From NCBI RefSeq assembly GCF_963678975.1, contig NC_089275.1, positions 18,240,220 through 18,304,219 of the forward strand: a stretch of DNA of 64,000 nt, written 5' to 3'. The DNA is from Dysidea avara. Its lineage: Eukaryota > Porifera > Demospongiae > Dictyoceratida > Dysideidae. The translations under genes and the position numbers were made by a program. Shown here piece by piece: positions 701 to 63,700 of this stretch (position 1 is the stretch's first letter; every line of letters starts with the position of its first letter). The notes under the pieces were generated by a model, which saw nothing but the letters and a program-made list of their open reading frames with translations, made no database searches and was not told the DNA's origin.

Positions 701-1329
701 TTGATTTTTCGGATTGCGGACCCTAGCTTAGTTTCTTCGTTTTTTTTCTTCTTCTTCCTCTTTTCGCACACTTACAAAAACTGCTATAAAACGCAAACGC
801 CTTATCCGATCGCCTTGAAATGTGGCACACAGAAGGGGGGTATAAAGGCGCATCTCTGTACCAACTTTGGCTGGAATACGATAAACAGGCAAAGAGTTAT
901 GAGCGATTATTCACGAAAAATAACACCAATATGTTGTCACGCCTACAGGGTAAACCGCGTATGGGAAGAAGCTGAAAATCGGTGGGTGAATAGGTTAACT
1001 ATTGAACCTCAAACCTTTTGTGGTTTGAAAGAAATCGAGCTAAAAACCAGGAAGATACAACGAAAAAACCAACAGTGTGTAACAATTACGCAATCGAGAT
1101 TAGCTAATAAAAAACCACTGCTTGCCACGCCTACCAGGTAAACCGCTTGGGGTAATGCTTTGAAAATCGCTGTACAGATGGAGTTATCATCTTAGAAAGG
1201 CTCTTCAATGGTGTAGAAGAATCAGACTTAAAGCCACGGAGTTATAACACGAAATCCAACTTGGTGTAGCAAGTGCGAGATCGAGATACTCTAATAGAGC
1301 AGTCATCCTAATAGAGCAGTCACCCTGAA

Positions 1330-4060
1330 CAGAATTCAAGAGATCAGTTAGAAAAAAGTAACCTGTATAGAGATCAGCTACAAACAAATCACCCTGTAGA
1401 GAGTTCAGCTACAAACAATTCACCCTGTTCAGACATCAGTTTGAAGAAGTTTTCTTGTAGAGAGTTTAGTTACAAACAAATCACCCTGTTGAAAAATCAG
1501 CTAGAAGATGTCACCTTGTAGATAGTTCAGTTACAAAGATACCAACATGTAGAGAATTCAGCTACAAACTAGTGACCCTGTAGATACATCAGCTAGAAGA
1601 AGTTACCTTGTAGAGAGTTCAGCTACAAAGAAACCATTCTGTAAAGAGCTCAGCTGCAAACAAATCACCTATACAGAATTCAGGTACAAACAAATCACCC
1701 TGTAGAGAGATCAGCTAGAAGAAGTTACCTTGTAGATAGTTCAGCTACAAACAAATCATCCTGTAGAGAGATCAGTTAGAAGAAGTTACCTTGTAGATCG
1801 TTCAGCTACAAACAATTCACCCTGTAAAGAGATCAGCTAGAAGAAGTTACCTTGTAGAGAGTTCAGCTACAAAGAAACCATCATGTAGAGAATTCAGCCG
1901 CAAACAAATCACGTGTAGAGAGTTCAGCTACAAACAAATCTCCCTGTAGAGAGATCAGCTAGAAGAAGTTTCCTTGTAGAGAGTTCTGCTACAAACAAAT
2001 CGCCCTGTAGAAAGATCAGCTAGAAGAAATCACCTTGTAGAGAGTTCAGCTTCAAAGAAACAATCATGTGAGAGTTCAGCTACAAACAAATTGTCCTGTA
2101 AAGAGATCAGCTAGAAGAAGTTACCTTGCAGAGAGTTCAGCTACAAAGAAACCATCATGTAGAGAGTTCAGCTACAAACAAATCACCCTATAGAAAGATC
2201 AGCTATAGAAGAAATCACCTTGTAGACAGTTCAGCTACAAAGAAACCATCATGTATAGAGTTCAGCTACAAACAAATCACCCTGTAGAAAGATCAGCTAT
2301 AGAAGAAATCACCTTGTAGAGAGTTCAGCTACAAAGAAACCATCATGTAGAGAGTTCAGCTACAAACAAATCCTCCTGTAGAGAGATCAGCTAGAAGAAA
2401 TTACCTTGTAGAGAGTTCAGCTACAAAGATACCATCATGTAGAGAGTTAAGCTACAAACAAATCTCCCTGTAGAGAGATCAGCTAGAAGAAGTCACCTTG
2501 CAGAGAGTTCAGTTACAAAGAAACCACCATGTAGAGAGTTCAGCTGCAAACAAATCATCTGTAGAGAGTTCAGCTATATAGAAATAAGTCACCTTGTAGA
2601 GAGTTCAGCTAGAAGAAGTCACATTGTAGAGAGTTCAGCTACAAAGAAACTACCATGTAGAGAGTTCAGCTGCAAACAAATCACCCTGTAGAGAACTCAA
2701 CTACAAACAAATCGCCATGTAGAAAGATTAGCTAGAAGAAGTTACCTTATAGGGAGTTCAGCTACGAACAGATCACCCTGTAGAGAGTTCAGCTACAAAC
2801 AAATCACCCTGTAGAGAGTTCAGTTACAAAGAAACCACCATGTAGAGAGTTCAGCTGCAAAAAATCAATCACTCTGTAGAGAATTCAGCTAGAAGAATTC
2901 AGCTAGAAGAATTCACCTTGCAGAGAGTTCAGCTGCAAATAAATCACCCTGTAGAAAGTTCAGCTATGAACAGATCACCCTGTAGAGAGATCAGCTAGAA
3001 ACAAGTCACCCTGTAGAGAGTTCAGCTAGAAGAAATTACCTTGTAGAGAGTTCAGCTACAAAGAAACCACCATTTAGAGAGTTCAGCTGCAAACAAATCA
3101 CCCAGAGAGAAAGTTCAGCTATGAACAGATCACCCTGTTGAGAGTTCAGTTAGAAACAAGGAATCCTGTAGAGAGATCACCTAGAAGTATCACCTTGTAG
3201 AGAGTTCAGCTACAAACAAATCACCTGTAGAGAGTTCAGCTACAAACAAATCACCCTGTACAGAGATCAGCTAGAAGAAGTCACCTTGTAGAGAGTTCAG
3301 CTATAAAGAAACCACCATGTAGAGAATTCAGCTGCAAACAAACACCCTGTAGAGAACTCAGCTACAAACAAATCGCCCTGTAGAAAGATCAGCTAGAAGA
3401 AGTTACCTTGTAGGGATTTCAGCTACAAACAAATCATCCTGTAGAGAGTTCAGCTACAAAGAAACCATTCTTTAAAGAGCTCAGCTGCAAATAAATCACC
3501 TGTACAGAATTCAGCTACAAACAAATCACCCTGTAGAGAGATCAGCTAGAAGAAATTACCTTGTAGATAGTTCAGCTACAAACAAATCACCCTGTAGAAA
3601 GATCAGTTAGAAGAAGTTACCTTGGAGAGAGTTTAGCTACAAAGAAACCATTTTGTAAAGAGCTTAACTGAAACAAATCACCTGTACAGAATTCAGCTAC
3701 GAACAAATCACCCTGTAGAGAGATCAGCTAGAAGAAGTTACCTTGTAGATAGTTCAGCTGCAAAGAAATCACCCTGTAGAAAATTCTGCCAGAAACAAAT
3801 TGCCCTGTAGAAAGATCAGTTAGAAGAAGTTAGCTTTTAGAGAGTTCAGCTACAAATAAACCATTCTGTAAAGATCTCAGCTGCAAACAAATCACCTGTA
3901 CAGAATTCAGCTACAAACACATCACCCTGTAGAGAGATCAGCTAGAAGAAGTTACCTTGTAGATCGATCAGCTACAAACAATTCACCCTGTAGAGAGAGC
4001 AATTAGAAGAAGTCACCTTGTAGAGTGTTCAGTTACAAAGAAACCACCATGGAGATTTCT
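1330..4060. repeat. Long minisatellite, about 30-bp units
   Basis: This is an almost unbroken array of variants of TGTAGAGAGTTCAGCTACAA alternating with TGTAGAGAGATCAGCTAGAA, each followed by a short variable linker (AAATCACCC, AGAAACCATCA, GAAGTTACCT). The unit is about 30 bp. It is the reverse complement of the arrays at 38300-38960 and 48190-53110. Each unit holds a short imperfect palindrome (GTAG..CTAC). Frames through it are not coding. Confidence 0.93.
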
Positions 4061-4474
4061 GTAATCAATATATGTGACTGGATTTGCAAAAAGGGGTCTT
4101 CCACACTCATCCAATTCTGTAAACGTTGGAGACCATAACTCAGTGTTCAAGTAACATATTAAGCTGAAAATTTCACCATGTATTCAGCTATAGTGGTGCT
4201 CACCACTGTCCAAATTTCAAGGTAATAGCTCTTTCCAATCAGAAGTTATCAATTGTCAAAGTTGGCAAATTGGATGTGTGTGGAAGACCCCTTTCGCAAA
4301 TCCGGTCACATATGTATTATATATATAGTTTGTACATTTACTGATAAAATATTTAAAGTACATCTACTTCATCTTTTCTTCTTCCTGTAGTAAAGAAAAA
4401 AAACATAGGTTAAAAAAGTCCCAAAGCTGGCCATAGGCCGGCTTTGGGGTATACAAATACAAAAAGAAATGAAA

Positions 4475-4793
4475 TCTAATCCAAAACAGCTAAGCTGTAA
4501 AAAAAGTGTGCGGCCCTCAGAAAGGCTATGGTGAAAAAAGATGTGAAATCCAAGGTGGCGGCCAAGAAATGGCTGTGATGGTAGGTTAATGGTAAAAATT
4601 TTAATAACGACAATTCAGGTGAATTTTTGTGCCACTTCACAAAATTTACCTGAATTGTCATTATTAAAATTTTTACCATTAACCTACCATCACAGCCATT
4701 TCTTGGCCGCCACCTTGGATTTCACATCTTTTTTCACCATAGCCTTTCTGAGGGCCGCACACTTTTTTTACAGCTTAGCTGTTTTGGATTAGA
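4475..4793. repeat. Near-perfect palindrome (foldback), terminal module of composite element
   Basis: The arms run 4475 to about 4630 and about 4640 to 4793. They begin TCTAATCCAAAACAGC and are almost exact reverse complements around a short centre near 4635. The same palindrome, with deletions, recurs at 38075-38196, 47673-47995, 58582-58770 and as one arm at 63310-63440. A mirrored 67-codon frame on each strand is a by-product of the symmetry. Confidence 0.9.
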
Positions 4794-13604: not shown

Positions 13605-13767
13605 TGAGCTCTCAAATAACAATCAGTTGTGATTTGTTTGCTTTTTATTGTGTGTAAAAGCTGAAATCATCTGAATTTGCTCAAAAATCTGATCAGCAGT
13701 TGTAGTTTTTCGCGGCAATAAATGTCCAATATTTGATACGCCTACATGCGCTTACAGATTTAATAAT
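13605..13767. repeat. Inverted repeat IR-2, partner of 4794-4958
   Basis: The reverse complement of the IR-1 sequence ends at the TTATTAAATC border. The two copies face each other 8.6 kb apart. Confidence 0.85.
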
Positions 13768-14989: not shown

Positions 14990-17900
14990 ATGGCGACTAA
15001 CTGGGAGAAGGTGAAAGAAGAGCTCACTTGTGCAATTTGCCAAGATCTTCTAAATGACCCCAAGATACTCCCCTGTCTTCATTCGTTTTGTGCCGGCTGC
15101 CTTAAAGAATGGTTGGGTCGATTGCCCTACTTGGATAGTTCGAAACGTGAGCTTGAGTGTCCACTGTGCAGAGGAAAGGTTGCACTATCTACTCCACGTG
15201 CTGTAGAAGATTTACCATCGCATTTTTCAGCCGTTCGTCTAGTGGAGATCGTGCGTCTACAACAGCAAGTAAGCAGTAAGAAGGTCACGCCCATTTGTCA
15301 AAGTTTCGATGAAGGAGAACCAGCAGTGTCGTATTGCAACGAGTGTGCTACGTTCTTATGTGAGTTTTGCGAGACGGCGCACCGACGACTAAGAAGCACC
15401 AGTGGGCACAAAGTCTGCTCAATGGATGAGTTAAAGAAAGGCAGTGCTACTGATATTCCATCCATCTTACCAGAGAAGGTTGAGATGTGTCTCGTCCACC
15501 CTACCAAACCACTGGAGTTGTACTGCAGGTGTGAAGATGTGTTGATCTGTCGAGACTGCATCATCAAGAAACACAAGGGCCATGACTATGATGTGATCTC
15601 TGATGTTGTTAATGGTGAGAAGAAGATACTGAAGGAAGCTCTTCCTAGTATCCAGCAACTAATAGATGAAGTAGAAGAAGCCATCAATGGAGTAAAGAGC
15701 AAAAGACAAGATGTGAAGAATAGGAAAGAAGAAAACATTCACAGGTTGGATGATGCCTTTCATACCCTCCATGCTGCCCTAGATGAACGAAAGAGACAGT
15801 TACAACAACAGATCAAACAGGATACAGAGGGAAACGATAAAGGCTTAGCAGTACAGGAAGATGAACTGTGTTTCTTATTAAGCCAGTTGAAGAGCTGCTG
15901 GAGTTTCATCGATGATAAACTACAACGAGGTGTTAACAAGGATGTGCTGGCCATGAAAAGATCAATGTTGGAGCGAAGAGATAAACTGAAAGAAACGAAG
16001 AGCAAAACAAAACTAAACCCTATCATGAAGGAACAAGTGCCCATCAACCTCAAAGGTATAGATAATGTGGTACATATAATTTCTAAGCTAGGGTCATTTT
16101 GTGAGGCTCAGAAATGCTACACATTAGGATTGAAAGGTATTCTACCTTTTACGTGCAAGAAAAATTCCTTTACAATACAACTAAAAGATCCATTGAGTAA
16201 TGACATTTGCAATTCCAAAGAGATAGATGTGATGGTACAATATTACAACAAAAATCAGATCACTGAGGCAGCTACTATCAGAGAAATTGGTGGTGGTAGT
16301 TATGAGGCTTCTTACATTTGTAAATTTGGTGGGAGTCACACTGTGTCTATACAGGTGGGAGGGGAACGCATTCCCGGTAGTCCATTTAAGTGAGTTGACA
16401 TCGATATCTCTAGCTCTGTGTATTGCGTAGCACATAATTATGTACTGATAAATAAATGTGACCAAATTTGACAAAAAGCATTGTGTAAAATGTGTAGGTC
16501 AATAGCTTACTGAGTAGTCAGGTTACAGTTGGTTAAAAGTCAGAAAATCAAGACACACGGTAGTGTGTCGTGCAGCCCAAGAAGCCGGCGCGCAACGCCC
16601 GTGAGTATATTGACAGGAAGAACGAAAATGCAATTTTCGCACCTCCGTGGCTCTGTGCTGCCTTGATGAAACAAGATGATTTTTGCTGCGGACACTCCCT
16701 CCAACTTCAGTACTCCACATTCCAAATTTGAGTGAAATCGCTTCAAGCGTTCCCGAGATATGCGACTTCAAAAATTGGCTTAGTTTCTTCATTTCTTTTA
16801 AAAAACAGGTGCGCGCCCACAGCTGGCCGAAGCAGTACTTACAATGCATTCTTCATGGATTTACCAGTGTCCTCCTTAGTGTCCCATTCTTCTTTGCTGG
16901 CAGCAAAAGGTGTCAAATTGTCAGTAGCACGTGATGGTTTCTCTTCATAATGGAAATTGTCTGTATTTTTCATAGTGGCTGCTTTGATTGCAGAGGTACT
17001 TTTGAAGAACAGTTCTTGATTCATACTGTTGTGTAACGGACTCAACATCGTTGACAACAAAATGTAAAATGGATACTCCACTTTTCAGACAATAATTGAT
17101 AGCTGGGATGTGCAGCACCATTCTTTCTTTTGATGTGGTATGCATGGGTTTACCAGTTATAATAATTAAATTTTTTACTTTACAACTAGAGTTAACAAAC
17201 AAGTACACAATTTTCTAGGGACCATGGCACATCGATAAAAAGTACTGAAGCAAGCTGGAGTATTAGTGCATGACATTAATCACAGTAAAACAATAAGCAG
17301 TGTTATATCCCTACTGTGCTCAAGGTATCATAATGGAAATGTACAGTAAGAATATAACATTTCTTATTGTTTTACTGTGATTTGTTTCAGTACTTTTTAT
17401 CAATGTGCTATTGTCCTTACTCTAGTTGAAAATTCCAAATCTTTTGTGTACTTGTGTCAATCCTGGTATCAGCCTATAGACAAGGGATCATATAACTCCA
17501 CAGACAGTGAAATTCAAATATGTCTACTGTGTACTATAGGCTTTTCAAATTCCTTATTGGGACAGTATACAGAGGTACATGTTTTAGTGCGTCACATTAC
17601 CGACACAACAAAACAAAGCAATGAAAATGAAGTTGAATAGCAGCACTATGAAAGAATGGTAGCACAGGCAGGGCAGGTCAGCCTTTCTACATTCACTAGT
17701 GGCATGAAATTACTTTGGTGGACTATTCCTAGTTGTTCCTTCGATTCAATGGTCTTCCTATTGAAACAGCACAAAGCAGCCCATTCTGAGTATCGCTGTT
17801 ATGCATAAGATTGGTGTGAACTTTTCTGTTCAGCAGGCATTTTCTGCACAGCCTTTTACTGCTTCTCAGCTTGCTCAACTTGTCTTTCCTTGCCTATTAA

Positions 17901-21190: not shown

Positions 21191-21635
21191 AATAAATAAT
21201 TTGTATTTAGCTTATTTTAAACAGTTGTTCTACTTGGATTTGACTAAAGTTCTCCAAGATCCAATCTTGTGATTGTTATTTTTCAAAATTTTTTTCTTGG
21301 TCGACCATTAATTTGATAAATAAAATGCCTTACAAAAATCTGCCATAGCTAAATACCTTTTAATTTTCACTTTTTTTCACTCCACTAATTTCCTTTATAA
21401 TACCATACCTGTTTCACTGCCCATACAAAAGTCTCAATAGTAGCAGTGAAATTTATCCCGTATTTCACTGGTAGCAGTGAAAAAGTTGTAATTGCAATTT
21501 CATTGGCTAGAATTTATGTTAACAATGTAGCGCCAATTAGTGTTGACACGTGTTTAGTACATAGTGACAAATTGCGTACATAGCAACGCTAATGCACAGC
21601 ATGCGCATATGCAGCGAGTATGGTATTAACTGGGA

Positions 21636-21791
21636 ATAGCATGGGTATAGCAGTGAAATTTGGGATAAATACCACTCTTTGTTGTATTGGAAACGGTAAA
21701 TTTCACTCGGCTTCGCCTCGTAAAATTTATTCCCATTTCCAATACAACACTTGTGATATTTATCCCAAATTTCACTGCTACCCATGCTATT
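21636..21791. mobile_element. Foldback element, about 155 bp
   Basis: Arms of about 70 bp (AATAGCATGGGTATAGCAGT against its reverse complement ending 21791) flank a centre around TCGGCTTCGCCTCG near 21710. A related half-arm (GCAGTGAAATTTATCCCGTA) lies at about 21444. Confidence 0.75.
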
Positions 21792-21899
21792 ACTAGTACT
21801 AATCACATAGTGATTTAATTTGCCATACATTAGTCTCAATAGTAGGAGTGCAATTAATTCCAAATCGCATGGCCTTGTTTCTGTAATTGCACTGTAAAG

Positions 21900-31047: not shown

Positions 31048-31608
31048 ATCCCATCCAAAAACAGCTTATAGCTGTAAAAAAGGTGCGTGTCCAAGTAAAG
31101 CAGAGTTAACTGCGACAAAAAGTAATGATATCATAATGCGGCCATGTGCGAGGTGTGCAAGTTGTAAAATTAATATTAGCTAATCAGATAATACAATGTT
31201 ATTGTTAAAGTGTTAATGAGAACTATGTGACGCTGCTAGTTTTTAAGTGTGTGAGCATCTTCATAAATGCCACACAAATTTAATTCTCAATAAAGCAATG
31301 TGTATAGATTCTCTGGCTAAACTCAAACTATTTATTGCTATCAGAGAATCTATACACATTGCTTTATTGAGAATTAAATTTGTGTGGCATTTATGAAGAT
31401 GCTTACACACTTAAAAACTAGCAGCATCACATAGTTCTCATTAACACTTTAACAATAACATTGTATTATCTGATTAGCTAATATTAATTTTACAACTTGC
31501 ACACCTCGCACATGGCCGCATTATGATATCATTACTTTTTGTCGCAGTTAACTCTCCTTTACTTGGATGCGCACTTTTTTACAGCTATAAGCTGTTTTTG
31601 GATGGGAT
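31048..31608. mobile_element. 561-bp near-perfect palindrome (foldback element)
   Basis: Two arms of about 265-270 bp, 31048-31317 and 31343-31608, meet around a roughly 25-bp centre. Mismatches are only a handful. The ends ATCCCATCCAAAAACAGC...GCTGTAAAAAAGGTGCG resemble the composite-element palindrome ends (TCTAATCCAAAACAGC), so the two are probably related families. No protein is encoded. Confidence 0.92.
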
Positions 31609-38074: not shown

Positions 38075-39806
38075 TCTAATCCAAAACAGCCAAGCTGTAA
38101 AAAGAGTGCGGCCTTGGATTTCACATCTTTTTTCACCATAGCCTTTCTGAAGGCCGCACTCTTTTATTACAGCTTGACTGTTTTGGATTAGATTTCACTT
38201 CTTTTTGTATTTGTATACCCCAAAGCCGGCCATAGGCCGGCTTTAGGGCTTTTTAACCTATCATTTTTTTCTTTACCACAGGAAGAAGAGAAGATGAAGC
38301 AGGGTGATTTCTTTGTAGCTGAACTGTCTACAAGGTAACTTCTTCTAGCTGATCTTTCTACAGGGCGATTTGTTTGTAGCTGAATTCTCTACAGGGCGAT
38401 TTGTTTGCAGCTGAACTCTCTACATGGTAGTTTCTTTGTAGCTGAACTCTCTACAATGTAACTACTTCTAGCTGAACTCTCTACAGGGTGACTTGTTTCT
38501 AGCTGATCTCTCTACAGGGTGACTTGTTTCTAGCTGAACTCTCCACAGGTGATTTGTTTGCAGCTGAACTCTCTTACATGGTGGTTTCTTTGTAGCTGAA
38601 CTCTCTACAAGGTGACTTCTTCTAGCTGATCTCTCTATAGGATGACTTGTTTCTAACTGAACTCTCTACAGGGTGATCTGTTCATAGCGGAACTTTCTAC
38701 TGGGTGATTTGTTTGCAGCTGAACTCTCTACACGATGGTTTCTTTGCAATTGAACTCTCTACAAGGTAACTTCTTCTAGCTGATCTCTCTACAGGGCAAT
38801 TTGTTTGTAGCTAAATTCTCTACAGGGTGATTTGTTTGCAGCTGAACTCTCTACATGATGGTTTCTTTGTAGCTGAACTCTCTATTGGGTACCTTCTTCT
38901 AGCTGATCTGACTACAGGGTGGCTTGTTTGTAGCTGAATTCCTACAGAATAACTTGCAATGTAATATCATTGAGTAAATTATAAACGCAACTGAATGCTT
39001 TATTAGGGTGACTGTTCTATTAGAGTATCTCGATCTCGCATTTGCTACACGAGTTGCCTTTCGAATCATAACTCAGTGGTTTGTAATCCAATTCTTCTGT
39101 ACTACTGCAAGGACTTTGTATGATGATTATTCCAGCTACATACTGCTTTTCAGCTCGTTGCTCTAAGCGGTTTGCCTGGTAGACACGAAAACTATTAGTT
39201 TTTTTATTCATAAAAATCGATCGCATAATTTTTAGACACAGGTTGGGTTTTGTGTCATATCTCCACGGTCTTTATCCCGATTCCTTTCTAACCACACAAA
39301 GGCACTCCTACTATGGTTGCTCTATCTACATATCAATTTTCAACTGATTCCTCCGAGGGGTTTACCCTGTAGGCGTGACAGACCTTCGACCTTATTGTAC
39401 GCAAATAATCGGTCATAACTCCGAGAATGTTCATCGTATTCCTACCAAAGTTGATAAGGAGATCCGCCTTAATGAGCCCTTTAAGTGTGCCAAATTTCAG
39501 CCCAATCCGAGCACGAATTCGTGTTTTATGGCGGATTTTTCGAAGTGTGCGAAATGAAAAAGTAGCGAAGAAATTAAAACGAAATTTTGTTCGCTCGTAT
39601 CTCGGAAATGACTGGAACGATTTTCTTCAAATTGGTATGGACTCCCCTTACTGGCTGGCATTTCTCTAGCAAATTTGGTTCCAATCGGATTAGGGATCAC
39701 AGAGCTACATAGGTGTGAAAATTACGTTTCCTTTCTTCCTGTTAATATACTCACGGTGTGGCGCGCCGGCTTCTTGGGCCGCACGACACACTATCGTGTG
39801 TCTGGA
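38075..39806 (+). mobile_element. Composite minisatellite-core element, copy B (complete order)
   Basis: Modules: terminal palindrome with internal deletion (38075-38196), hairpin AAAGCCGGCCATAGGCCGG (38222-38247), minisatellite (38300-38960), GTGACTGTTCTATTAGAGTA motif (39008), tail (39030-39806). The tail has GGCGCGCCGGCTTCTTGGG and the hairpin ACACACTATCGTGTGT, ending CTGGA before T. It starts TC after an A. Length 1732 bp. No transposase, Rep or helicase is encoded. Confidence 0.85.
38300..38960. repeat. Minisatellite of composite copy B
   Basis: About 22 units of the 30-bp GTAGCTGAACTCTCTACA-type repeat, in the opposite orientation to 1330-4060. Confidence 0.92.
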
Positions 39807-39959
39807 TTTGTAACTTAATGTGACAGAACTCTGCTTTAACACACAAAGCATTGTTAGTAGCAGTGGCAGATACGGGGTCTCTTGACCCCTCCAAACATTT
39901 TTAGTATACCAAGATCAAGATACTCCAATAGAGAAGTCACTCTAATAAAGCAGTCACAG
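39807..39959. other. Short spacer with two copies of the CTCTAATAGAG-type motif
   Basis: AGATACTCCAATAGAGAAGT at about 39912 and CTCTAATAAAGCAGTCAC at 39940 are diverged copies of the motif present in the composite and MITE ends. Confidence 0.5.
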
Positions 39960-42111: not shown

Positions 42112-42561
42112 TAGTCTCGCGTGGCCAGACCGCTTTTTTCCGTATATTGGGTGAGGAAAAAAGGGTCTGGTGCAACTCCAATAGCTGTTTACTTCTAAGC
42201 CGTCCCCACATTCCGGGGACGCTAATTGAATAACACTGGTCACAAAGGAGGTGCCATGACGTCAGTAAAACTATGAAGTATTCCTACACTCCTGCTCCGG
42301 TTGTGAGTCTTGTTACACGATGAGGATTAATTTTCAAGACGCTATAAAAGAGACATCGGAGCAAATTAAGATTCGTTTAAAGGATAAACAGATCTCTAGT
42401 TAACTTACTGACGTCATGGCACCTCCTTTGTGACCAATGTTATTCAATTAGCGTCCCCGGAATGTGGGGACGGCTCAGAAGTAAACAGCTATTGGAGTTG
42501 CACCAGACCCTTTTTTCCCCACCCAATATACGGAAAAAAACGGTCTGGCCACGCGAGACTA
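42112..42561. mobile_element. 450-bp foldback element with 9-bp target duplication
   Basis: Arms of about 170 bp start TAGTCTCGCGTGGCCAGACC. The flanks are identical 9-mers CTACTGAGC (42103-42111 and 42562-42570). A 9-bp duplication with long arms suits Mutator-like elements; the class is inferred. It sits inside the first exon of the transposase gene. Confidence 0.88.
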
Positions 42562-46758: not shown

Positions 46759-47009
46759 TGTGACCGGGCCTGCGATAATAGGGCATGTGGGCACATGATT
46801 TTTGCCTACTTTTTCACACTTTCAGCACTCATAAAATTTTGTACCATTATGGTATGGAATTGCAATTTTCAGCTCTTAGTAAGAATGTAATTGGCATCAT
46901 GATGCAAGTTACAGAATGGAAATATACATTTCCAATACTGAGATATAGCCTATAGAGTGATGGGGTGTGGTTTGTGCCCACATGCCCTGTTTTCGCAGGC
47001 CCGGTCACA
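46759..47009. mobile_element. 251-bp foldback element
   Basis: Ends TGTGACCGGGCCTGCGA...AGGGCATGTGGGCACA paired with TGTGCCCACATGCCCT...CGCAGGCCCGGTCACA. The target duplication is unclear. It supplies the last 50 or so codons of the adjacent minus-strand frame. Confidence 0.85.
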
Positions 47010-47631
47010 TTTACTGATTTGAATTGAGGTTCACATGATGACCTAATAAACTGTCCCTCAGGTTCAGCCCACTTAAAGTAGCAGTTCCTTTTTTTTGCTG
47101 CAGCAGATTGCTTATATGAGTCAAGGAACTCCTGAATTCGTGTATGGCTCAGTTTACGAACCAACTCTGTGAAAATTCCATTTAGCTGCTTATACGGTAA
47201 AGAGATTGCTTCTGGTATTTTCCCCAATACAGTAGTGTAGAACATTGTCATTAGTTCTGTGTTGTTGTCCATGGCATCAGTAACTGACTTCACAAACTCA
47301 GTCCCCTGTTCACCAAATTGACTGACATTTGTGTGTTCTTTTGTCTTAACATCAACAGCTTTCAAGAAAGGCAACAGTTCTTGGCATGGAAAGTACATGT
47401 AGCCTTCATCTCGATATTTCAAATATGCCGGGATGTCAATCTTATCATTTTCCATGTGGACACTTAGTTTCTGTAACACTGTTATTTCTAAAGAAACTTG
47501 GTCTTTGTCTTTACTGGATGTTTTCATTTTATTGTATCTCGTCTTAAGCATATCTGCAAAGGCCCCTCCACCAAACCGGTAGTATACATCGTCAGTATCT
47601 TCATGAACTGCTGCCACTTGAATTGGTTCGG
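46847..47631 (-). CDS. Partial gene of unknown function (3' fragment)
   Basis: An open minus-strand exon from a good acceptor at 47632-47633 (CAAATTAG) to a stop at 46847. It encodes EPIQVAAVHEDTDDVYYRFG, then a helical soluble protein with LEITVLQKLSVHM and a repeated KLSHTRIQEFLDSY element. No active site, signal or membrane segment. I do not recognise it with confidence; comparable DDVYYRFGGGA proteins seem to me to occur in other sponges and cnidarians. The native frame ends near 47010: beyond it the codons come from a foldback insertion. The 5' part is missing, because composite element C begins 42 bp upstream. The fragment at 54039-54530 may be its lost N-terminal part. Confidence 0.55.
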
Positions 47632-47672
47632 CTAATTTGATTACATTTTGGCATTGCTGGAGTAATTCATTA

Positions 47673-50600
47673 TCTAATCAAAAACAGCCAAGCTGTAAAA
47701 AAAGGTGTGGCCCCCAAAAAGGCCATGGTGAAAAAAGATGTGAAATCCAAGGTGACAGCCAAGAAATGGCTGTGATGGTAGGTTAATGGTAAAAATTTTA
47801 ATAACGACAATTCAGGTGAATTTGATGCCAAGACCAAGTGGCACAAAATTCACCTGAATTTTCGTTATTAAAATTTTTACCATTAACCAACCATCACAGC
47901 CATTTCTTGGCCGCCACCTTGGATTTCACATCTTTTTTCACCATGGCCTTTTTGGGGCCGCACCTTTTTTTACAGCTTGGCTGTTTTTGATTAGATATCT
48001 CTTCTTTTTGTATTTGTATACTGCAAAGCCAGCCTATGGCTGGCTTTGGGGCTTTTTTAACCCATATGTTTTTTTATTTACCACAGGAAGAAGAAAAGAA
48101 CTTATAGAAGATTTTTAATACTTCAATTATTCTTGATTTTATTAGTAATTATAGAAATTATATACATATATTTATTACATGCTCATTATTCCCCACAGGA
48201 TATTTTTTAGCAGCTGATCTCTCTACTGGGTGACTTAAAATATAGCTGAACTATATACAGGATGGTTTCTTTGTAGCTGAACTCTCTACAAGATAAATTC
48301 TTCTAGCTGATTTCTCTACAGGGCGATTTGTTTCTAGCCGAACTCTCTACAGGTTATTTGTTTGCAGCTAAACTCTCTACATCCATGGTGGTTTCTTTGT
48401 AGCTGAACTCTCTACATGATGGTTTCTTTGTAGCTGAACTCTCTACAAGGTGACTTCTTCTAGCTGAACTCTCTACAGGGTGATTTCTTTGTAGCTGAAC
48501 TCTCCACATGATGGTTTCTTTGCAGCTGAACTCTCTACAGGGTGACCTCTTCTAGCTGATCTCTCTACAGGGTGATTTGTTTCTAGCTGAACTCTCTACA
48601 GGTGATTTGTTTGCAGCTAAACTCTCTACATGGTGCTTTCTTTGTAGCTGAACTCTTTACATGATGGTTTCTTTGTAGCTGAACTCTCTACAAGGTGACT
48701 TCTTCTAGCTGAACTCTCTACAGGTGATTTGTTTGCAGCTAAACTCTCTACATCCATGGTGCTTTCTTTGTAGCTGAACTCTCTACATGATGGTTTCTTT
48801 GTAGCTGAACTCTCTACAAGGTGACTTCTTCTAGCTGAACTCTCTACAGGGTGATTTCTTTGTAGCTGAACTCTCCGCATGATGATTTCTTTGTAGCTGA
48901 ACTCTCTACGAGGTGACCTCTTCTAGCTGATCTCTCTACAGGGTGATTTGTTTCTAGCTGAATTATCTACAGGTGATTTGTTTGCTGCTAAACTCTCTGC
49001 ATGGTGCTTTCTTTGTAGCTGAACTCTCTACATGACGGTTTCTTTGTAGCTGAACTCTCTACAAGGTGACTTCTTCTAGCTGAACTCTCTACAGGTGATT
49101 TGTTTGTAGCTAAACTCTCTACATGGTGCTTTCTTTGTAGCTGAACTCTCTACATAACGGTTTCTTTGTAGCTGAACTTTCTACAAGGTGACCTCTTCTA
49201 GCTGATTTCTCTACAGCGTGATTTGTTTCTAGCTGAACTCTCTACAGGTTATTTGTTTGCAGCTAAACTCTCTACATCCATGGTGGTCTCTTTGTAACTG
49301 AACTCTCTACATGATGGTTTCTTTGCAGCTGAACTCTCTACAAGGTGACTTCTTCTAGCTGAACTCTCTACAGGGTGATTTCTTTGTAGCTGAACTCTCT
49401 ACATGATGGTTTCTTTGTAGCTGAACTCTCTACAAGGTGACTTCTTTTAGCTGATCCCTCTACAGGGTGATTTATTTGCAGCTGAACTCTTTAGGTGGTG
49501 ATTTCTTTGTAGCTGAACTCTCTACATGATGGTTTTTTTGTAGCTGAACTCTCTACAAGGTGACTTCTTTTAGCTGATCCCTCTACAGGGTGATTTGTTT
49601 GCAGCTGAACTCTTTAGGTGGTGATTTCTTTGTAGCTGAACTCTCTACATGATGGTTTCTTTGTAGCTGAACTCTCTACAAGGTAACTTCTTCTAGCTGA
49701 TCCCTCTACAGGGCGATTTGTTTGTTGTTGAATTCTCTACACGGTAATTTGTTTGAGGCTGAACTCTCTACATGGCGGTTTCTTTGTAGCTGAACTCTCT
49801 ACAAGGTGACTTTTTCTGGCTGAACTCTATACAGAGTGATTTGTTTGCAGCTGAACTCTCTACATGATGGTTTCTTTGTAGCTGAACTCTCTACAAGGTG
49901 ACTTCTTCTAGCTGAACTCTCTACAGGGTGATTTCTTTGTAGCTGAACTATTTAGGTGATGATTTCTTTGTAGCTGAACTCTCTCCGAGGTAACCTCTTC
50001 TAGCTGATCTCTCTACAGGGTGATTTGTTTCTAGCTGAACTCTCTACAGGTGATTTGTTTGCAGCTAAACTCTATACATGGTGCTTTCTTTGTACCTGAA
50101 CTCTCTACATGATGGTTTCTTTGTAGCTGAACTCTCTACAAGGTAACTTCTTCTAGCTGATCCCTCTACAGGGCGATTTGTTTGTTGTTGAATTCTCTAC
50201 ACGGTAATTTGTTTGAGGCTGAACTCTCTACATGGCAGTTTCTTTGTAGCTGAACTCTCTATAAGGTGACTTTTCTAGTTGAACTCTATACAGAGTGATT
50301 TGTTTGCAGCTGAACTCTCCACATGATGGTTTCTTTGTAGCTAAATTCTCTATAAGGTGGCCTCTTCTATAGCTGAACTCTTTACATACAGTAGTGTCTA
50401 GTTTCTAGCTGATCTCTCTACAGGGTGATTTGTTTGCAGCTGAAATCTCTACAGGGTGATTTGCTTGTAGCTGAGCTCCTTACATTGTGTCTAGTTTCTA
50501 GCTGATCACCACAGTGTGATTTGTTTGTAGCTGATCTCTCTACAAGTTGATTTGTGTGTAGTTGATATCTCTACAGGTTGATTTGTTTGTAACTGATCTC

Positions 50601-53600
50601 TCTACAGGGCAATTTGTTTGTAGCTGAACTCTCTATAAGGTGATTTGATCTCTCTGCAGGTTGATTTGTTTGTAGCTGAACTCTCTAAAGGGTGATTTGC
50701 TTGTAGCTGAACTCCTTACATTGTGTCTAGTCTCTAGCTGATCTCTCTACAGGGTGATTTGTTTGTAGCTGATCTCTCTGCAGGTTGATTTATTTGTAGC
50801 TGAAGTCTCTACAGGGTGATTTGTTTCTAGCTGATCTCTCTACAGGGTGATTTTTTGTAGCTGATCTCTCTGCAAGTTGATTTGTTTGTAGTCGATCTCT
50901 CTACAGGGTAATCTGTTTGTAGTTGAACTGTCTATAAGGTGATTTTTTTGTAGCTGATCTCTCTGCAAGTTGATTTGTTTGTAGCTGAAGTCTCTACAGG
51001 GTGATTTGTTTCTAGCTGATCTCTCTAGAGGGTGATTTTTTGTAGCTGACCTCTCTTCAGGGTGATTTGTTTCTAGCTGATCACTCTACAGGTTGATTTG
51101 TTTGTAGCTGAAATCTCAACAGGGTGTATTGCTTGTAGCTGAACTCCTTACATTGTGTCTAGTTCCTAGATGATCTCTCTACAGGATGATTTGTTTGTAG
51201 TTGATTTCTCTGCACATTGATTTGTTTATAGCTGAACTCTCTACAGGGTGATTTGTTTCTAGTTGATCTCTCTACAAGTTGATTTGTGTGTAGCTGATCT
51301 CTCTGCAAGTTGATTTGTTTGTAGTCGATCTCGCTACAGGGTAATTTGTTTGTAGCTGAACTGTCTATAAGGTGATATGTTTGTAGCTGATCTCTCTGCA
51401 GGTTGATTTGTTTTAGCTGAACTCTCTACAGGGTGATTTGTTTCTAGCTTATCTCTCTACAGGTTGATTTGTGTGTAACTGATCTCTCTACAAGCTGATT
51501 TGTTTGTAGCTGATCTCTCTACAGGTTGATTTGTTTTAGCTGAACTCTCTACAGGGTGATTTGTTTCTAGCTTATCTCTCTACAGGTTGATTTGTGTGTA
51601 ACTGATCTCTCTACAAGCTGATTTGTTTGTAGCTGATCTCTCTACAGGGTGATTTGTTTCTAGCTGATCTCTCTACAAGTTGATTTGTGTGTAGCTGATC
51701 TCTCTGTAAGTTGATTTGTTTGTAGTCGATCTCTCTACTGGGTAAGTTGTTTGTAGCTGTACTGTCTATAAGGTGATATGTTTGTAGCTGATCTCTCTGC
51801 AGGTTGATTTGTTTGTAGCTGAAGTCTCTACAGGGTGATTTGTTTCTAGCTGATCTCTCTACAGGGTGATTTTTTGTAGCTGACCTCTCTTCAGGGTGAT
51901 TTGTTTGTAGCTGATCTCTCTGCAGGTTGATTTGTTTGTAGCTGAAATCTCAACAGGGTGTATTGCTTGTAGCTGAACTCCTTACATTGTGTCTAGTTCC
52001 TAGATGATCTCTCTACAGGATGATTTGTTTGTAGTTGATTTCTCTGCACATTGGTTTGTTTGTAGCTGAACTCTCTACAGGGTGATTTGTTTCTAGTTGA
52101 TCTCTCTACAAGTTGATTTGTGTGTAGCTGATCTCTCTGCAAGTTGATTTGTTTGTAGTCGATCTCGCTACAGGGTAATTTGTTTGTAGCTGAACTGTCT
52201 ATAAGGTGATATGTTTGTAGCTGATCTCTCTGCAGGTTGATTTGTTTTAGCTGAACTCTCTACAGGGTGATTTGTTTCTAGCTTATCTCTCTACAGGTTG
52301 ATTTGTGTGTAACTGATCTCTCTACAAGCTGATTTGTTTGTAGCTGATCTCTCTGCAGGTTGATTTGTTTTAGCTGAACTCTCTACAGGGTGATTTGTTT
52401 CTAGCTTATCTCTCTACAGGTTGATTTGTGTGTAACTGATTTCTCTACAGGGTGATTTGTTTCTAGTTGATCTCTCTACAAGTTGATTTGTGTATAGCTG
52501 ATATCTCTGTAAGTTGATTTGTTTGTAGTCGATCTCTCTACTGGGTAAGTTGTTTGTAGCTGAACTGTCTATAAGGTGATATGTTTGTAGCTGATCTCTC
52601 TGCAGGTTGATTTGTTTTAGCTGAACTCTCTACAGGGTGATTTGTTTCTAGCTTATCTCTCTACAGGTTGATTTGTGTGTAACTGATCTCTCTACAAGCT
52701 GATTTGTTTGTAGCTGATCTCTCTGCAGGTTGATTTGTTTCTAGCTGATCTCTCTACAAGTTGATTTGTTTGTTGCTGATCACTCTAAAGATTGATTTGT
52801 TTGTACCTGAACTCTCTGCAAAGTGTTTTGTTTGTAGCTGATCTCTCTACAGGATAATTTGTTTGTAGCTGAACTCTCTGCACAGTGATTTGTGTGTAGC
52901 TGAATTCTCTAGAGAGTAATTTAATTGTAGGTGAACTCTCTACAGGGTGCATGACTTGTTTATAGCTGAACTCTCTTCAGTGTGACTTGTAATGTTCTGA
53001 ATCTCTACAGTGATCTAATTGTAGCTTAATTCTCCACAGGGTGACTTGCTTCTTGCTGAACTGTCTATAAGATTAACTGTTTGCAGCTGAACTCCCTACA
53101 GAATAACTTGTAATGTAATAGAATTCTATAACGGAGTAAATAAATTAGCTGAATGCTCTATTAGGGTGACTGTTCTATTAGAGTATCTCGATCTCGCATT
53201 TGCTACACAGAGTTGGCTTTCGAATCATAACTCAGTGGTTTGTAATCCAATTCTTCTATACTACTGCAAGGACTTTCTATGAAGATTATTCCAGCTATAC
53301 ACCGATTTTCAGCTCATTGCTCTTAGCGGTTTGCCTAGTAGGCGTAAAAACTAATCCTTTTTTATTACTAAAAATCGATCGCGTAATTGTGACACAGGTT
53401 CGGTTTTGTGTCATATCTCCGTGATCTTAATCTCGATTCCTTTCAAACCACCAAAAGGCACTCCTACGATGGTTACTCCATCTACATAGCAATTTTCAGC
53501 TCATTCCATGAAGCGGTTTACCCTGTAGGCGTGACAACAAATCGATCTTGTTTTACGCGAATAATCGGTAATAACGCCTGAACCATTCATCGGATTTGCA

Positions 53601-53976
53601 CCAAATTTGATGCTAGGATGCGCCTTTGGACTCCCTTTCTGTGTGCCAAATTTCAAGGCGATCGGAGCTCGCGTTTGCGTTTTATAACAATTTTTGCAAG
53701 TGTGCGAAAAGACGAAGAAGAAGAAAACAAAAATGAAGAAAAAAAAACTAAACTTTGGCCGCTTATATCTCGGAAATGGCTTGAGTGATTTCCTTCAAAT
53801 TTGGAATGTAGACTCCCCTAGCTGGCGGGAAACTCTGTAGCAAATTTCGTTTCAATCGGATAAGCTATCACCGAGATACAAAAGTGTGAAATGACGTTTT
53901 CTTTCTTCCTGTCAATATACTCACGGTGTGGCGCGCCGGCTTCTTGGGCCGCACGACACACTATCGTGTGTCTTGA
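47673..53976 (+). mobile_element. Composite minisatellite-core element, copy C (6.3 kb)
   Basis: Same order as copy B: palindrome 47673-47995, hairpin 48024-48049, minisatellite 48190-53110, GTGACTGTTCTATTAGAGTA motif at 53166, tail to 53976 with GGCGCGCCGGCTTCTTGGG and hairpin ACACACTATCGTGTGT, ending CTTGA before T. The left flank base is A. It differs from copy B almost only in minisatellite length (about 4.9 kb against 0.66 kb). Confidence 0.88.
48190..53110. repeat. 4.9-kb minisatellite with higher-order structure
   Basis: About 165 units of roughly 30 bp. Up to about 50350 the units read mostly CTGAACTCTCTACAAGGTGA / CTACATGATGGTTTC. After that they are CTGATCTCTCTACAGGTTGA types. Block repeats overlie this: about 460 bp in the first part (GATTTGTTTGTTGTTGAATT at 49716 and 50176), and about 834 bp in the second (AAATCTCAACAGGGTGTATT near 51111 and 51945). 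Minus-strand frames are artefacts. Confidence 0.93.
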
Positions 53977-54038: not shown

Positions 54039-54530
54039 CTACAAACTTTGTGCCATTCGCTTCTGACTGTCACCACTTTCACTGCTAAGGGATCTGATGG
54101 GTGTAGACCTATATCTCAATTCACTGTTTTTCAACACAAGGAAATAACTGCAGTGGCTGTGCCACTTGAGTTGGAACTGTAAGTATCGCTCTTTTAACGT
54201 GGAACACTCATCATACAATCTTAGAAATGTTTCTTTCAAGTGCTCTGTGAAAAACGATAGAGCAACTGGAGTGACGGAATCACAAAATGCTTTTAGCAAT
54301 TCTCTTACCACTGAAACCTCCTTTATTGTACTAGACAAACTCTTCAGGGTAATTTCTTCGTTACTTGTAGACGAAATACGAGCTAAAACGTTTTTCTTTT
54401 CAGTTTTGTTCAAGACATGACGTCGTCGGGTGGTCTTACGCTCTCCTTCTTGCTTAGTCTTGCATCGCTCAGAAGTGGTTTTCTTCGATTTTCGTTTAGC
54501 GGGTGGTGGCTCTGTTTCATCGTAATCTTC
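54039..54530 (-). CDS. Partial gene of unknown function (N-terminal-type fragment)
   Basis: An open minus-strand stretch running from about 54530 to a stop at 54039. It starts with an acidic/basic tract (ECEDYDETEPPPAKRKSKK), then RRRHVLNKTEKKNVLARI, SSTIKEVSVVRELLKAF and LKETFLRLYDECSTLKERYL. It looks soluble, helical and possibly nuclear. No family recognised. The upstream side is cut by the poly(A)-like 3' end of a LINE fragment at about 54535; the downstream side ends 63 bp before composite element C. On the same strand across that element lies 46847-47631. Confidence 0.45.
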   Translation of the reverse strand, partial: EDYDETEPPPAKRKSKKTTSERCKTKQEGERKTTRRRHVLNKTEKKNVLARISSTSNEEITLKSLSSTIKEVSVVRELLKAFCDSVTPVALSFFTEHLKETFLRLYDECSTLKERYLQFQLKWHSHCSYFLVLKNSELRYRSTPIRSLSSESGDSQKRMAQSL

Positions 54531-54534
54531 GCAC

Positions 54535-55690
54535 TCTTTTTATTTATTTTTTTTCTTTCTTTTATAATACAGTTACAATACAAATTACTCTAAAACTAAA
54601 CTACAAACACAATTAATTACAACAGGGGTTTGGGGAAAGGAAAATCAGAGTCTTCACACTGCAAAGCCCAGTACCGTAAAATCATACGGGCATTGTTCGT
54701 CCATAAAGAAACTGAAAGTTGTTGTAACAAATGTTTACGAGCCTGTTTGGTTGATGCACCACTTCTGGCTGTGGTGCGTTCAGCGATGGTACGAAGGGTC
54801 TGAAGCGCAAATGGTGACCAAAAACCAAAAGTTTCTACAACAAGTGGGACAAAGTCACACCCTACCTCCTCTACAGCATCTTGATGTCTCTGGTCCTTGG
54901 CTAACTTACCTGCTGCAGCAGCTACCCCAGCACAAGAAGAAGAAAAAGAAATGTGAGAAGGCTGGGTAGTGCTACGAACAGACACATCAAAATAAGCTGG
55001 ACGACCATGCTGAAAGTCAGGGTGGTACACATCACCTGGGCGAGAATTATCTTCATAAGAAACACGTTGTTCCTTCAAAACTCCTGAGTGACTCTGGGAC
55101 AAAGCATGATAAACAATGTCAACTAGAGCATCATGGCGACAAATTCTCATAGGACCATGAGAACATTCTAGAAGATGGTCACCAAATTGGTCAATGGAAG
55201 TAAGACACACACATAATGGGGAAAGTGGAAATAGAGGGATTCCGAGCCACAAACGAAGGCCAACAACAAACTCAGGACCAGGAATAGCCAGAGCAAGGGA
55301 GACTTGAGGAATAGCTTTGAGCCATCCACTGCTAGTACCAGATGAGTGAGAGAGAGCAGTAAGTCGAGCACGGTTTCGGATGTTGAAAGAAGCAAATAGT
55401 TGGTCATACTGATTTTGATCTAACAGAGCCTGTAAGTCCTGCTGGGTAGCAGAGGGAATAAAGATATCAGATGTAAACCTTTCAAAGGTAGCAACAGCAA
55501 GTTCTTCATTTGGAAACACTAGATCATGAAAGTCCTGGGATAGAAGATGAGAAGTCAGGAGACGAACACTATTACATGAATCCAAAAAGGCCGCAGCAGT
55601 GCACTCTTCGTCTTGTTCCATTATCTCATCATCAAATACATCAGCTTGCCATGAGGCTTGTTGAGACATTTCAACATTGGCGCACAAATG
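54535..55690 (-). mobile_element. LINE 3' fragment with A-rich tail
   Basis: The coding region 54617-55687 is followed on the minus strand by a 3' stretch ending in an A-rich tail (AAAAGAAAGAAAAAAAATAA region, about 54537-54565). This looks like the 3' end of a retrotransposed copy. The 5' limit is unknown; no target duplication was found. Confidence 0.55.
54617..55687 (-). CDS. Retroelement C-terminal region with restriction-endonuclease-like domain
   Basis: An uninterrupted 356-residue frame. After an acidic start come LKAIPQVSLALAIPGPEF and LRLWLGIPLFP, then a zinc-like box (C-V-C ... GDHLLECSHG ... CRHDAL), then RPGDVYHPDF, PAYFDVSVRS and FVPLVVETFGFWSP. The order C-x-C..H..C..H, then RPGD...D-V-S...E matches the C-terminal region of LINE-derived proteins that are common in cnidarians and sponges (R/KPD...D-V/A type endonuclease fold). 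It lacks reverse transcriptase, so it is a fragment or a free-standing derivative. A frame this long without stops suggests a recent or constrained copy. The start at 55687 is simply the most upstream Met. Confidence 0.7.
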   Translation of the reverse strand: MCANVEMSQQASWQADVFDDEIMEQDEECTAAAFLDSCNSVRLLTSHLLSQDFHDLVFPNEELAVATFERFTSDIFIPSATQQDLQALLDQNQYDQLFASFNIRNRARLTALSHSSGTSSGWLKAIPQVSLALAIPGPEFVVGLRLWLGIPLFPLSPLCVCLTSIDQFGDHLLECSHGPMRICRHDALVDIVYHALSQSHSGVLKEQRVSYEDNSRPGDVYHPDFQHGRPAYFDVSVRSTTQPSHISFSSSCAGVAAAAGKLAKDQRHQDAVEEVGCDFVPLVVETFGFWSPFALQTLRTIAERTTARSGASTKQARKHLLQQLSVSLWTNNARMILRYWALQCEDSDFPFPKPLL

Positions 55691-57480: not shown

Positions 57481-58071
57481 TTTTTTTGTGTCCTTGTATT
57501 ATATTATCTATGGTCTGGTGAACGCAGTAGCTTATGAGCCCCATAGCTACAGTTTTGTTGTGGCACCCCTCTAGATTTATGGGATTGTCTTCGTTGCTTC
57601 TGATTTCCGTGACAAACTCGTTGATCCCTTATGAGAACTGTGCCGTTGGCTTCGTCTTGTTTCAAACTAGTCATGCGCATGCAATTCTCGCCAACCAGGG
57701 GTATGGCACGTCCACAATTAATCACATACGCCCTTCAGCTACCAAATAACAAATCTCAAGCAATTCGCCCATGCAAGTAATTAATGTTGGTTGAAAACTA
57801 GTCTCGAAGAAATACTTATAAACAATACAAGCTCACAGTGATACAATACTATGAACAGATGTCCTTCAAAACCCAGTAACAACCTTACAAATCATGCGTG
57901 GCATTTCAAATCACAAATCCAATTTCAAATCGGCACAAATCAAGATTCAAATCATGAAATGATTTCAAATCACGTACAGATTTGCGAAGGTGTCACACCC
58001 CTCGTCGCCAACTGCCAACACAGCAATGAGAAGGAACCCCAAAATTAGTGTCGTTCAGTCCCAGACCACTT
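57481..58071. other. Intergenic, no gene seen
   Basis: Short frames only. A run of ATTCAAATCATGAAATG / TTTCAAATCA text at 57895-57975 is a simple degenerate repeat of TTCAAATC. Confidence 0.5.
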
Positions 58072-58581: not shown

Positions 58582-59653
58582 TCTAATCCAAAACAGCCAA
58601 GCTGTAAAAAAAGTCTGCGGCCCTCAGAAAGGCTATGGTGAAAAAAGATGTGAAATCCAAAGTGGCGGCCAAGAAATGGCTGCGATGGTAGGTTAATGGT
58701 AAAAATTTTAATAATGACAATTCAGGTAAATTTTGTGCCGCTTTTACAGCTTGGCTGTTTTGGATTAGATTTCATTTCTTTTTGTATTTGTATACCCCAA
58801 AGCCGGCCTATGGCCAACTTTGGGACTTTTTTATCCTATGTTTTTTTCTTTGCTACAGTATCTCGCACGTGCTGCACCAAGTTGGATTTCGTGTTATAAC
58901 TCCGTGGCTTTAAGTCTGATTCTTCTACACCATAGATGAGCCTTTCTAAGATGATTACTCCATCTGTACAACGATTTTCAAAGCATTGCCCCAAGCGGTT
59001 TATCTGGTAGGCGTGGCAAGCAGTCGTTTTTTTTTATTAGCTAATCTCGATTGCTTAATTGTTACACACTGTTGGTTTTTTCGTTGTATCTTCCTGTTTT
59101 TTAGCTCGACTTCTTTCAAACCACAAAAGGTTTGAGGTTCAATAGTTAACCTATTCTCCCACCGATTTTCAGCTTCTTCCCATACGCGGTTTATCCTGTA
59201 GGCGTGACAACTTATTGGTGTTTTTTTCCGTGAATAGTCGCTCATAACTCTTTGCCTGTTTATAGTATTCCAGCCAAAGTTGGTACCAAGATGCGCCCTT
59301 ATATCCTCCTTCTGTGCGCCAAATTTTAAGGCAATCGGATATGGCGTTCAAGTTTTATAGCAGTTTTTGTAAGTGTGCCACAAGAAAAAGAAAAATAAGA
59401 AAAAAAAACAACGAAGAAACTGAGCCAATTTTTGAAGTCGCATATCTCGGGAACGCGCCAAGCGATTTTGCTCAAATTTGGAATGTGGAGTACTGCAGTT
59501 GGAGGGCATGTCCACAGCAAAAATCGTCTTGTTTCATCAAGGAAGCACAGAGCTACGGAGGTGCAAAAATTGCATTTTCTTTCTTCCTGTCAATATACTC
59601 ACGGGTGTTACGCGCCGGCTTTGGGCCGCACGACACACTACCGTGTGTCTTGA
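58582..59653 (+). mobile_element. Composite element, copy D (no minisatellite)
   Basis: Palindrome with internal deletion (58582-58770), hairpin about 58798-58823, then directly the tail (58860-59653) with no minisatellite. It ends with the hairpin ACACACTACCGTGTGT and CTTGA before T, and starts TC after an A. It shows that the minisatellite is not needed for the element to be recognised as a unit. Confidence 0.85.
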
Positions 59654-63309: not shown

Positions 63310-63700
63310 AAAAGTTTTACCGTTAACCTACCATCACAGTCATTTATTGGCTGCCACCTTTGATTTCACAACTTTTTCACACAGGCTTTTTGGGGGCCAC
63401 ACCCTTTTTTCATAGCTTAGCTGTTTTTGTATAGATATCACTTCCTTTTGTATTTGTATACTCCAAGGCCGGCATGGCCAGCTTTGGAGTTTCTTTTACT
63501 TGTCTTTTTCTTTACTGCAAAAAGGAGGAAGACATCAAGGGCTAAATTCTGTGGATATTTTTATGATGCATTTTTTCTACAAAAATTAATACTGTATGAA
63601 AATTATCACATGTCCTCTCTCTTACAGGTAAACTCCCTAGGTTATAGCAGAAATATCTATAAGGAGACTTGTTTGTATTAGGGTTAAGACAAATAGTTCA
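63310..63700 (+). mobile_element. Composite-element fragment E (one arm, hairpin, worn minisatellite)
   Basis: One arm of the palindrome (GTTTTACCGTTAACCTACCA to GCTTAGCTGTTTTTG, about 63310-63436), the hairpin GGCCGGCATGGCC (63467-63482) and a trace of minisatellite (GTAAACTCCCTAGGTTATAG near 63627). No tail or terminal hairpin. Old or truncated copy. Confidence 0.7.

Follow-up and report, generated by a model that had tools for sequence, protein, structure and literature searches.

The window analyzed here, a 64-kb stretch of the Dysidea avara genome (C4:18240220-18304219), raises the question of how a repeated element moves when it starts with TC and sits between A and T like a Helitron, while its 5' end is a long foldback and its 3' end is not the CTRR of a Helitron. 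Four copies (A to D) and two fragments of this element, which are listed in Table 1 with their modules, made up 21% of the window. An initial annotation of the sequence had placed all of these copies and fragments correctly; the two fragments turned out to end at 16799 and 63532, rather than at 16806 and 63700. The same annotation spoke of at least four copies, which was true of the window, and the genome-wide number was in the thousands (searched genome, 550.8 Mb in 108 contigs).

Table 1. The element family and a related palindrome in the window (positions count from the first base of the window; a slash marks an element-flank junction)
Feature	Position	Strand	Details
Copy B, complete element	38075..39806	+	A/TCTAATCC ... 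CTGGA/T
Copy B 5' palindrome, shortened, 118 bp	38075..38192	+	
Copy B GC-rich hairpin 3' of palindrome	38219..38248	+	fold z -5.6; T run and splice-acceptor-like CACAG next
Copy B minisatellite core, 31-bp unit	38300..38956	+	
Copy B CTATTAGAGTATCTCGATC motif	39017..39035	+	occurs outside the element too
Copy B tail	39036..39739	+	39033-39808 versus copy D: 67% identity
Copy B 3' end block	39740..39806	+	subterminal GGGCCGCAC, hairpin GACACACTATCGTGTGTC, CTGGA
Copy A, 5' end full, 3' end absent	736..4793	-	319-bp palindrome at 4475-4793
Copy C, complete	47673..53976	+	minisatellite ~4.9 kb (48212-53101)
Copy D, two ends present, without minisatellite	58582..59653	+	
3'-end fragment, D-like copy	16548..16799	-	CTTGA/T end intact
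Degenerate 5' fragment	63310..63532	+	second palindrome arm and GC hairpin
Stand-alone palindrome, 559 bp, separate high-copy family	31049..31607	.	A/TCCCATCC ... GGATGGGA/T

The full layout consisted of a palindrome of ~320 bp, a GC hairpin, a T run with CACAG, a minisatellite with a 31-bp unit, the CTATTAGAGTATCTCGATC motif, a tail of ~700 bp and a 3' block in which a hairpin was followed by CTTGA. The common order of modules that had been proposed held for copies B and C. Copy A kept the order with an extra insert ahead of the minisatellite, and its 3' end was gone (similarity ended at 726-736); copy D had neither the minisatellite nor the full CTATTAGAGTATCTCGATC motif. This motif had been counted among the modules of the element, but it was not element-specific, since five of its eight window matches at ≤3 mismatches were located outside the copies. 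These five matches (18277, 30474, 30620, 30816 and 39913) were found near 17-bp tandem units, and the motif was also present in the flanks of other copies. It is an independent dispersed module.

The ends of the element were sharp and read A/TCTAATCC...GTGTGTCTTGA/T. Copies A, B, C and D all started A/TCTAATC, in agreement with the annotated TC after an A. As also annotated, the four right ends, which belonged to copies B, C and D and to the fragment at 16548, consisted of a hairpin, CTTGA (three ends) or CTGGA (copy B), and a flanking T. In a genome-wide sample in which identical palindromes were counted once and loci were mostly picked by exact end matches, the left flank was A in 24/25 cases and the right flank was T in 43/44. 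The 44 right ends read CTTGA (42), CTGGA (1) or CTTAA (1). The first two bases, T and C, were invariant in 20/20 aligned 5' ends, which had been picked by a TC-containing pattern with one mismatch allowed. Helitron1 is defined by a CTRR end and a 16- to 20-nt palindrome ~11 bp from the 3' end, according to the part of the source available (PMC4067079). None of the sampled right ends was CTRR, and the 3' hairpin (18 nt) was located 4 nt from the end. When 3' ends of 67-69 bases were folded as single strands, the 18-nt hairpin was the predicted minimum-energy form in copy D, and a longer alternative fold through the same block was predicted for copies B and C.

Both ends are built on one plan, TC-hairpin-GTGCGGCCC. 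The 5' end contained TC, the hairpin ACAGC-CAA-GCTGT, an A run and GTGCGGCCC. Read on the opposite strand, the 3' end contained TC, AA, the hairpin GACACAC-GGTA-GTGTGTC and GTGCGGCCC. The shared GTGCGGCCC was a 9-bp subterminal inverted repeat between the two end strings of ~50 bases, and a repeat of equal length arose in 2/2000 base shuffles. This subterminal match was the only one between the two ends of the long element, which had no terminal inverted repeat.

Exact searches for the 25-bp right end and the 32-bp left arm yielded 6,711 and 7,141 genome occurrences, respectively, with two of the latter for each palindrome that had both arms exact; the reversed patterns yielded 0 in both cases. 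Ten left/right end pairs on one contig (C1) spanned ~2.1-5.2 kb. A near-full-length relative was present in the sample for 35/44 tails, with a mean nearest-neighbor identity of 95.0%, a mean that includes one 100% pair formed by two stacked ends of a single locus (L032). The closest tails from different loci were 98.9% identical, which indicates that the family was recently active. Pattern scans of the viral contig and genome contig collections gave no matches. A satellite array was ruled out by the fixed ends and A/T junctions, and a segmental duplication by flanks that differed between copies. Among the titles and abstract openings listed for sponge-focused literature searches, none described this family, and among those listed for foldback Helitrons, none described an element of this build. 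Finders based on CTRR would probably overlook thousands of copies.

One candidate source of the transposition machinery was the genome's own canonical Helitrons. Helitron Rep domains gave at least 150 matches in the genome (150 scored of 230 candidates), many of them in long open frames, and no matches in 14 control genomes. Among four proteins that were scanned, Helitron_like_N was found in three, PIF1 helicase in two and OTU in one. Of the 34 lowest-scoring Rep matches, 14 were located on contigs C14 and C15. The 3' ends of two autonomous Helitrons (L089 and L090), which were identified by eye, read hairpin...CTAG/T rather than CTTGA. These Helitrons might mobilize the family in trans despite their unlike 3' ends, and the numerous Rep loci and the T after both CTAG ends speak for this idea. 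We regard it as unlikely, since the family had no terminal sequence in common with the two CTAG ends, the only two examined.

A Rep gene linked to CTTGA ends was not found by end screens, Rep proximity or protein comparison, and the same searches failed to produce the longer copy encoding Rep/helicase for which the initial annotation had proposed a search. The end screens returned 10 right ends with unrelated upstream sequence, 23 3' blocks with unrelated upstream sequence and 43 left ends without the A run. These ends and the 87 head-to-tail junctions described below added up to 163 positions. A proximity check of 158 of them against 146 of the 150 Rep matches gave two pairs <20 kb apart (10.2 and 14.7 kb), which is about chance level by our own arithmetic. 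RepHel proteins had no match in loci L001-L068 or the window, and of the 23 loci L069-L091 only L083 contained element sequence. There, at 780-850, an L089-type hairpin with CTAG abutted TGTAATATAATTGAG, which is interior sequence of a B-like copy with a cut tail; a CTAG-ended Helitron was therefore nested in this copy, and L083 was no partner. This junction bore out the 3' end read in L089. Because the three pattern screens passed only about one-quarter to one-third of unrelated sequence by our own arithmetic, the absence of a partner is weak evidence. CTAG-type 3' ends occurred twice in L090 (230-290 and 2660-2730), and their spacing of ~2.4 kb resembled that of a tandem array. Because TCTATATAATAA directly followed both, the end in L090 may extend further.

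We then looked at insertion sites. The initial annotation had named plain AT at the junction of empty sites as support for a Helitron mechanism, and joined flanks matched unbroken sequence at four empty sites, one of them less clean than the rest. The first was located inside the tail of another copy (TCTGA/TTCTTC), with ~299 aligned bases against many element copies. The second was found at 75-374 of the window (GAGAGAA/TCCCTTG; 300 aligned bases, 95%). The third was AT-rich, had small indels by the junction and matched for only ~30 bp beyond, and at the fourth (L006) the element interrupted one unit of a tandem repeat and the following unit was intact. In a half-sided fifth case, the left flank of copy A continued (AATAA/TTACTG) in an element-free repeat within 13560-13900. 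Neither poly-A nor a longer target duplication was present at the empty sites.

What the initial annotation had overlooked is that A/T empty sites by themselves are compatible with a 2-bp AT duplication. An AT duplication around an element C...G reads identically, so the empty sites alone cannot separate the two mechanisms. The family might thus be a cut-and-paste DDE element of the ISL2EU type, with the palindrome as a MITE-like foldback. ISL2EU makes 5'-AT-3' duplications and has AT at both junctions, according to the available part of PMC4482050, and the stand-alone palindrome in Table 1 has long inverted repeats.

The orientation of directly abutting copies offered a way to tell these mechanisms apart. 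If new copies entered the AT beside a resident copy, we reasoned that head-to-tail, tail-to-tail and head-to-head junctions should occur at ~2:1:1. We observed 87 head-to-tail junctions (CTTGA/TCTAATCC; two 25 bp apart), tail-to-tail junctions in two places and 0 head-to-head junctions. Head-to-tail junctions accounted for 87/89, compared with the two thirds expected (binomial p = 2e-13). Since a head-to-head junction brings two long palindromes together and may be unstable, the comparison is more safely based on the tail-to-tail junctions. This orientation bias favors rolling-circle or circular intermediates over AT-duplicating insertion. In addition, the A/AT/T target of ISL2EU did not fit the family, where the base before AT was A in 6/25 cases and T in 17/25, and the terminal inverted repeats of ISL2EU, which is described as having a DDE transposase (PMC4482050, available in part), contrast with the 9-bp subterminal repeat of the long element. 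We therefore consider a cut-and-paste origin decidedly improbable.

Not all loci carried both ends. Four of the 30 right-end loci examined (L009, L020, L030 and L035) had an intact CTTGA/T end (CTTAA/T in L030) with only ~45-390 bp of the element. As these short loci and the fragment at 16548-16799 showed, a copy can consist of the 3' end and lack the 5' part. The 3'-only loci are not readily explained by a rolling circle that is initiated at the 5' end. Such copies would suit an element of the non-LTR retroposon or SINE type that ends in a 3' hairpin and leaves 5'-truncated copies, an idea that is scarcely credible given the exact 5' arm common to thousands of copies, the A/T at both ends, the empty sites without poly-A or longer target duplications and the precise head-to-tail junctions. 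Tandem 3'-end pieces were observed as well, in L032 and in 6 of the 23 3' blocks with unrelated upstream sequence, where that sequence started with a right end. These pieces fit repeated use of 3' stops.

Together, the sharp ends, the A/T empty sites, the biased junctions, the conserved hairpins and the coupled evolution of the palindrome arms (see below) indicated that the family is a very high-copy non-autonomous Helitron-like element, which probably transposes by rolling circle with a head-to-tail intermediate and inserts between A and T; we give this reading a probability of about 0.83. The proposal of a Helitron-like or rolling-circle family in the initial annotation thus gained support from the empty sites and the 87:2:0 junctions. 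A RepHel-type transposase, presumably supplied in trans, would cut one strand at A/TC at the 5' end, and the strand would be peeled off until the 3' hairpin and CTTGA stopped the process. The strand, probably as a single-stranded intermediate, would then become a circle or concatemer in which its ends are joined head to tail, and would enter the target between A and T. We infer the enzyme and the single-strand intermediate, like the origin discussed below, from these features. In the available parts of the sources, Helraiser circles are described as having precise head-to-tail junctions (PMC4778049), and Helitron tandem arrays are known (PMC5876387).

To place the family among known systems, we compared it with published descriptions, which were available in part. 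Canonical Helitrons (Helitron1; Helraiser, PMC4778049 and PMC5876387) likewise have a 5'-TC, A/T insertion without visible duplication, a 3' hairpin and head-to-tail junctions. In contrast to them, the family has a CTTGA end, a hairpin 4 nt from the end, a palindromic 5' end and a subterminal repeat common to both ends. The HINE/DINE-1 elements (non-autonomous Helentrons; PMC4067079 and PMC7492417) resemble the family in their tandem-repeat core and 3' palindrome and in being non-coding and very high copy, and perhaps also in their subterminal inverted repeats and in a left inverted repeat that is complementary to the subterminal repeat. The central tandem repeats and 3' stem-loop of Helentrons and HINEs were thus present. 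These elements use a TT or T-rich target and have short left inverted repeats, whereas the family has an A/T target, a 5'-TC, a palindrome of ~320 bp and a 9-bp subterminal repeat (11-15 bp in HINEs).

Helitron2/FoHeli elements (PMC5148889) are like the family in that each terminus has a hairpin, the inverted repeats are asymmetric, some elements start with TC and joined-end forms occur. Hairpins and inverted repeats were found at both termini here, including GACACAC-GTGTGTC at the 3' end. Helitron2/FoHeli is reported to insert between TTTT and T or C, and a long 5' palindrome and a minisatellite core are not among the features described in the available part of that source. The 24/25 and 43/44 A/T flanks matched neither this site nor the T-rich site of Helentrons and HINEs. 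Proto-Helentron-Pi (PMC4067079) also mixes Helitron-type A/T insertion with Helentron affinity, but it is autonomous and has TT...CTAG ends.

The family acts like a Helitron and fits no described subgroup that was tested; it is best filed among the Helitron-like non-autonomous elements, as a variant with HINE-like architecture. One abundant family thus unites Helitron1-type target choice and HINE-type architecture. Because it inserts between A and T without CTRR, the textbook TC...CTRR would not define A/T-inserting rolling-circle elements.

The 5' foldback, which the initial annotation had flagged as a misfit along with the non-CTRR end, was as real as that end. The palindromes were 284-329 bp long in 20/25 sampled cases, and that of copy C (323 bp) folded as single-stranded DNA at -174 kcal/mol (z -34.7). 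Among 20 aligned palindromes, both sides had changed in 15/144 pairs, compared with 4.0 ± 1.3 in shuffles and 0-2 in slid controls; in this test, pair 87/249 was out of register, which slightly lowered the paired percentage. With the pairing corrected, the 58 distinct arm changes included 16 double changes that were complementary, where ~0.06 would be expected if the arms mutated independently; 13 of the 16 occurred in single copies. A further 40 changes affected one side (26 the left arm, 14 the right), and 2 affected both sides without being complementary, so the matching of the arms is incomplete. In L025, a one-base deletion was common to both arms. Over the first 140 bases, arm identity averaged 97.7% within a copy versus 95.5-96.9% between copies.

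The simplest reading of these linked changes is arm-to-arm copying through a hairpin, and selection for pairing is a possible alternative cause of the arm matching. The changes point to actual formation of the hairpin, with one arm serving as the template for the other, and they would be a readable trace of hairpin formation in the life cycle. At three left ends (C5:27293267, C9:4132137 and C12:12029581), the palindrome had seemingly collapsed to its tips (~35 bp), as would be expected of deletion at the center of a cruciform.

The initial annotation also overlooked that the 5' foldback resembles the stand-alone palindromes. At each of its two ends, the palindrome at 31049-31607 had the layout seen in the element (A/TCCCATCCAAAAACAGCTTATAGCTGTAAAAAAGGTGCG...GGATGGGA/T), but neither a GC hairpin nor a tail followed it. 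A first look at the genome returned 879 candidates of this type. Of the 40 that were scored, 6 matched near the whole length and 30 were inverted pairs of ~294-bp arms ~40 bp apart; the rest had a partial second arm (2) or a single arm (2). The palindrome of the long element also read GA/T at its inner edge, both in eight sampled copies and in copies A to D, which points to a composite origin of this element. Its 5' palindrome may have arisen when the left end was duplicated in inverted orientation, and may formerly have been a complete TC...GA element of the 31049-31607 kind. In a scheme modeled by analogy on Helraiser terminator bypass, the stop signal would have been bypassed, and a downstream hairpin would have become the new 3' end.

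A broader reading, which we offer tentatively and hold to be the lesser possibility, is that the family belongs to a separate rolling-circle class. In such a class, both ends would follow one rule (A/TC, short hairpin, GTGCGG...), an inverted left end would serve as the stop, palindromes and bypass composites would both be included, and hairpin-mediated copying would maintain the similarity of the palindrome arms. The stand-alone palindromes and the putative composites form a natural series in which to test how a rolling-circle element gains a new 3' end.

Other palindromes in the window had a different appearance. That at 42112-42561 was 450 bp long with the 9-bp repeat CTACTGAGC on each side, as would be expected of a Mutator-like MITE. 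Those at 17278-17382, 21619-21809 and 57206-57497 had ends unlike those of the element. A repeat of ~250 bp with inverted ends (TATGTGACCGGATTTGC...) was present in copy A (~4070-4313) and downstream of the autonomous Helitron in L090 (~1577-1830), and it is probably a separate MITE.

Pfam searches with 10 of the 13 window ORFs of ≥150 aa revealed RING/B-box/Filamin, NHL, Gypsy-type protease, reverse transcriptase, RNase H, integrase and TNP-like RNase H domains and no Helitron protein, and an Rfam scan of the whole window gave no match. In copies A to D, the splice-acceptor-like sequence TTTTTTT(C/A)TTT(A/G)C(C/T)ACAG, with alternative bases in parentheses, was located 3' of the GC hairpin (e.g., 38262-38290, 48060-48090 and 58810-58850). 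When the flanks of copy C were joined, an open frame ran from just past a splice-acceptor-like sequence into the ORF at 46847-47677. Judging from this frame, copy C seems to have inserted into a host exon (46847-47677 and 54039-54539, minus strand) a few bases past the splice acceptor.
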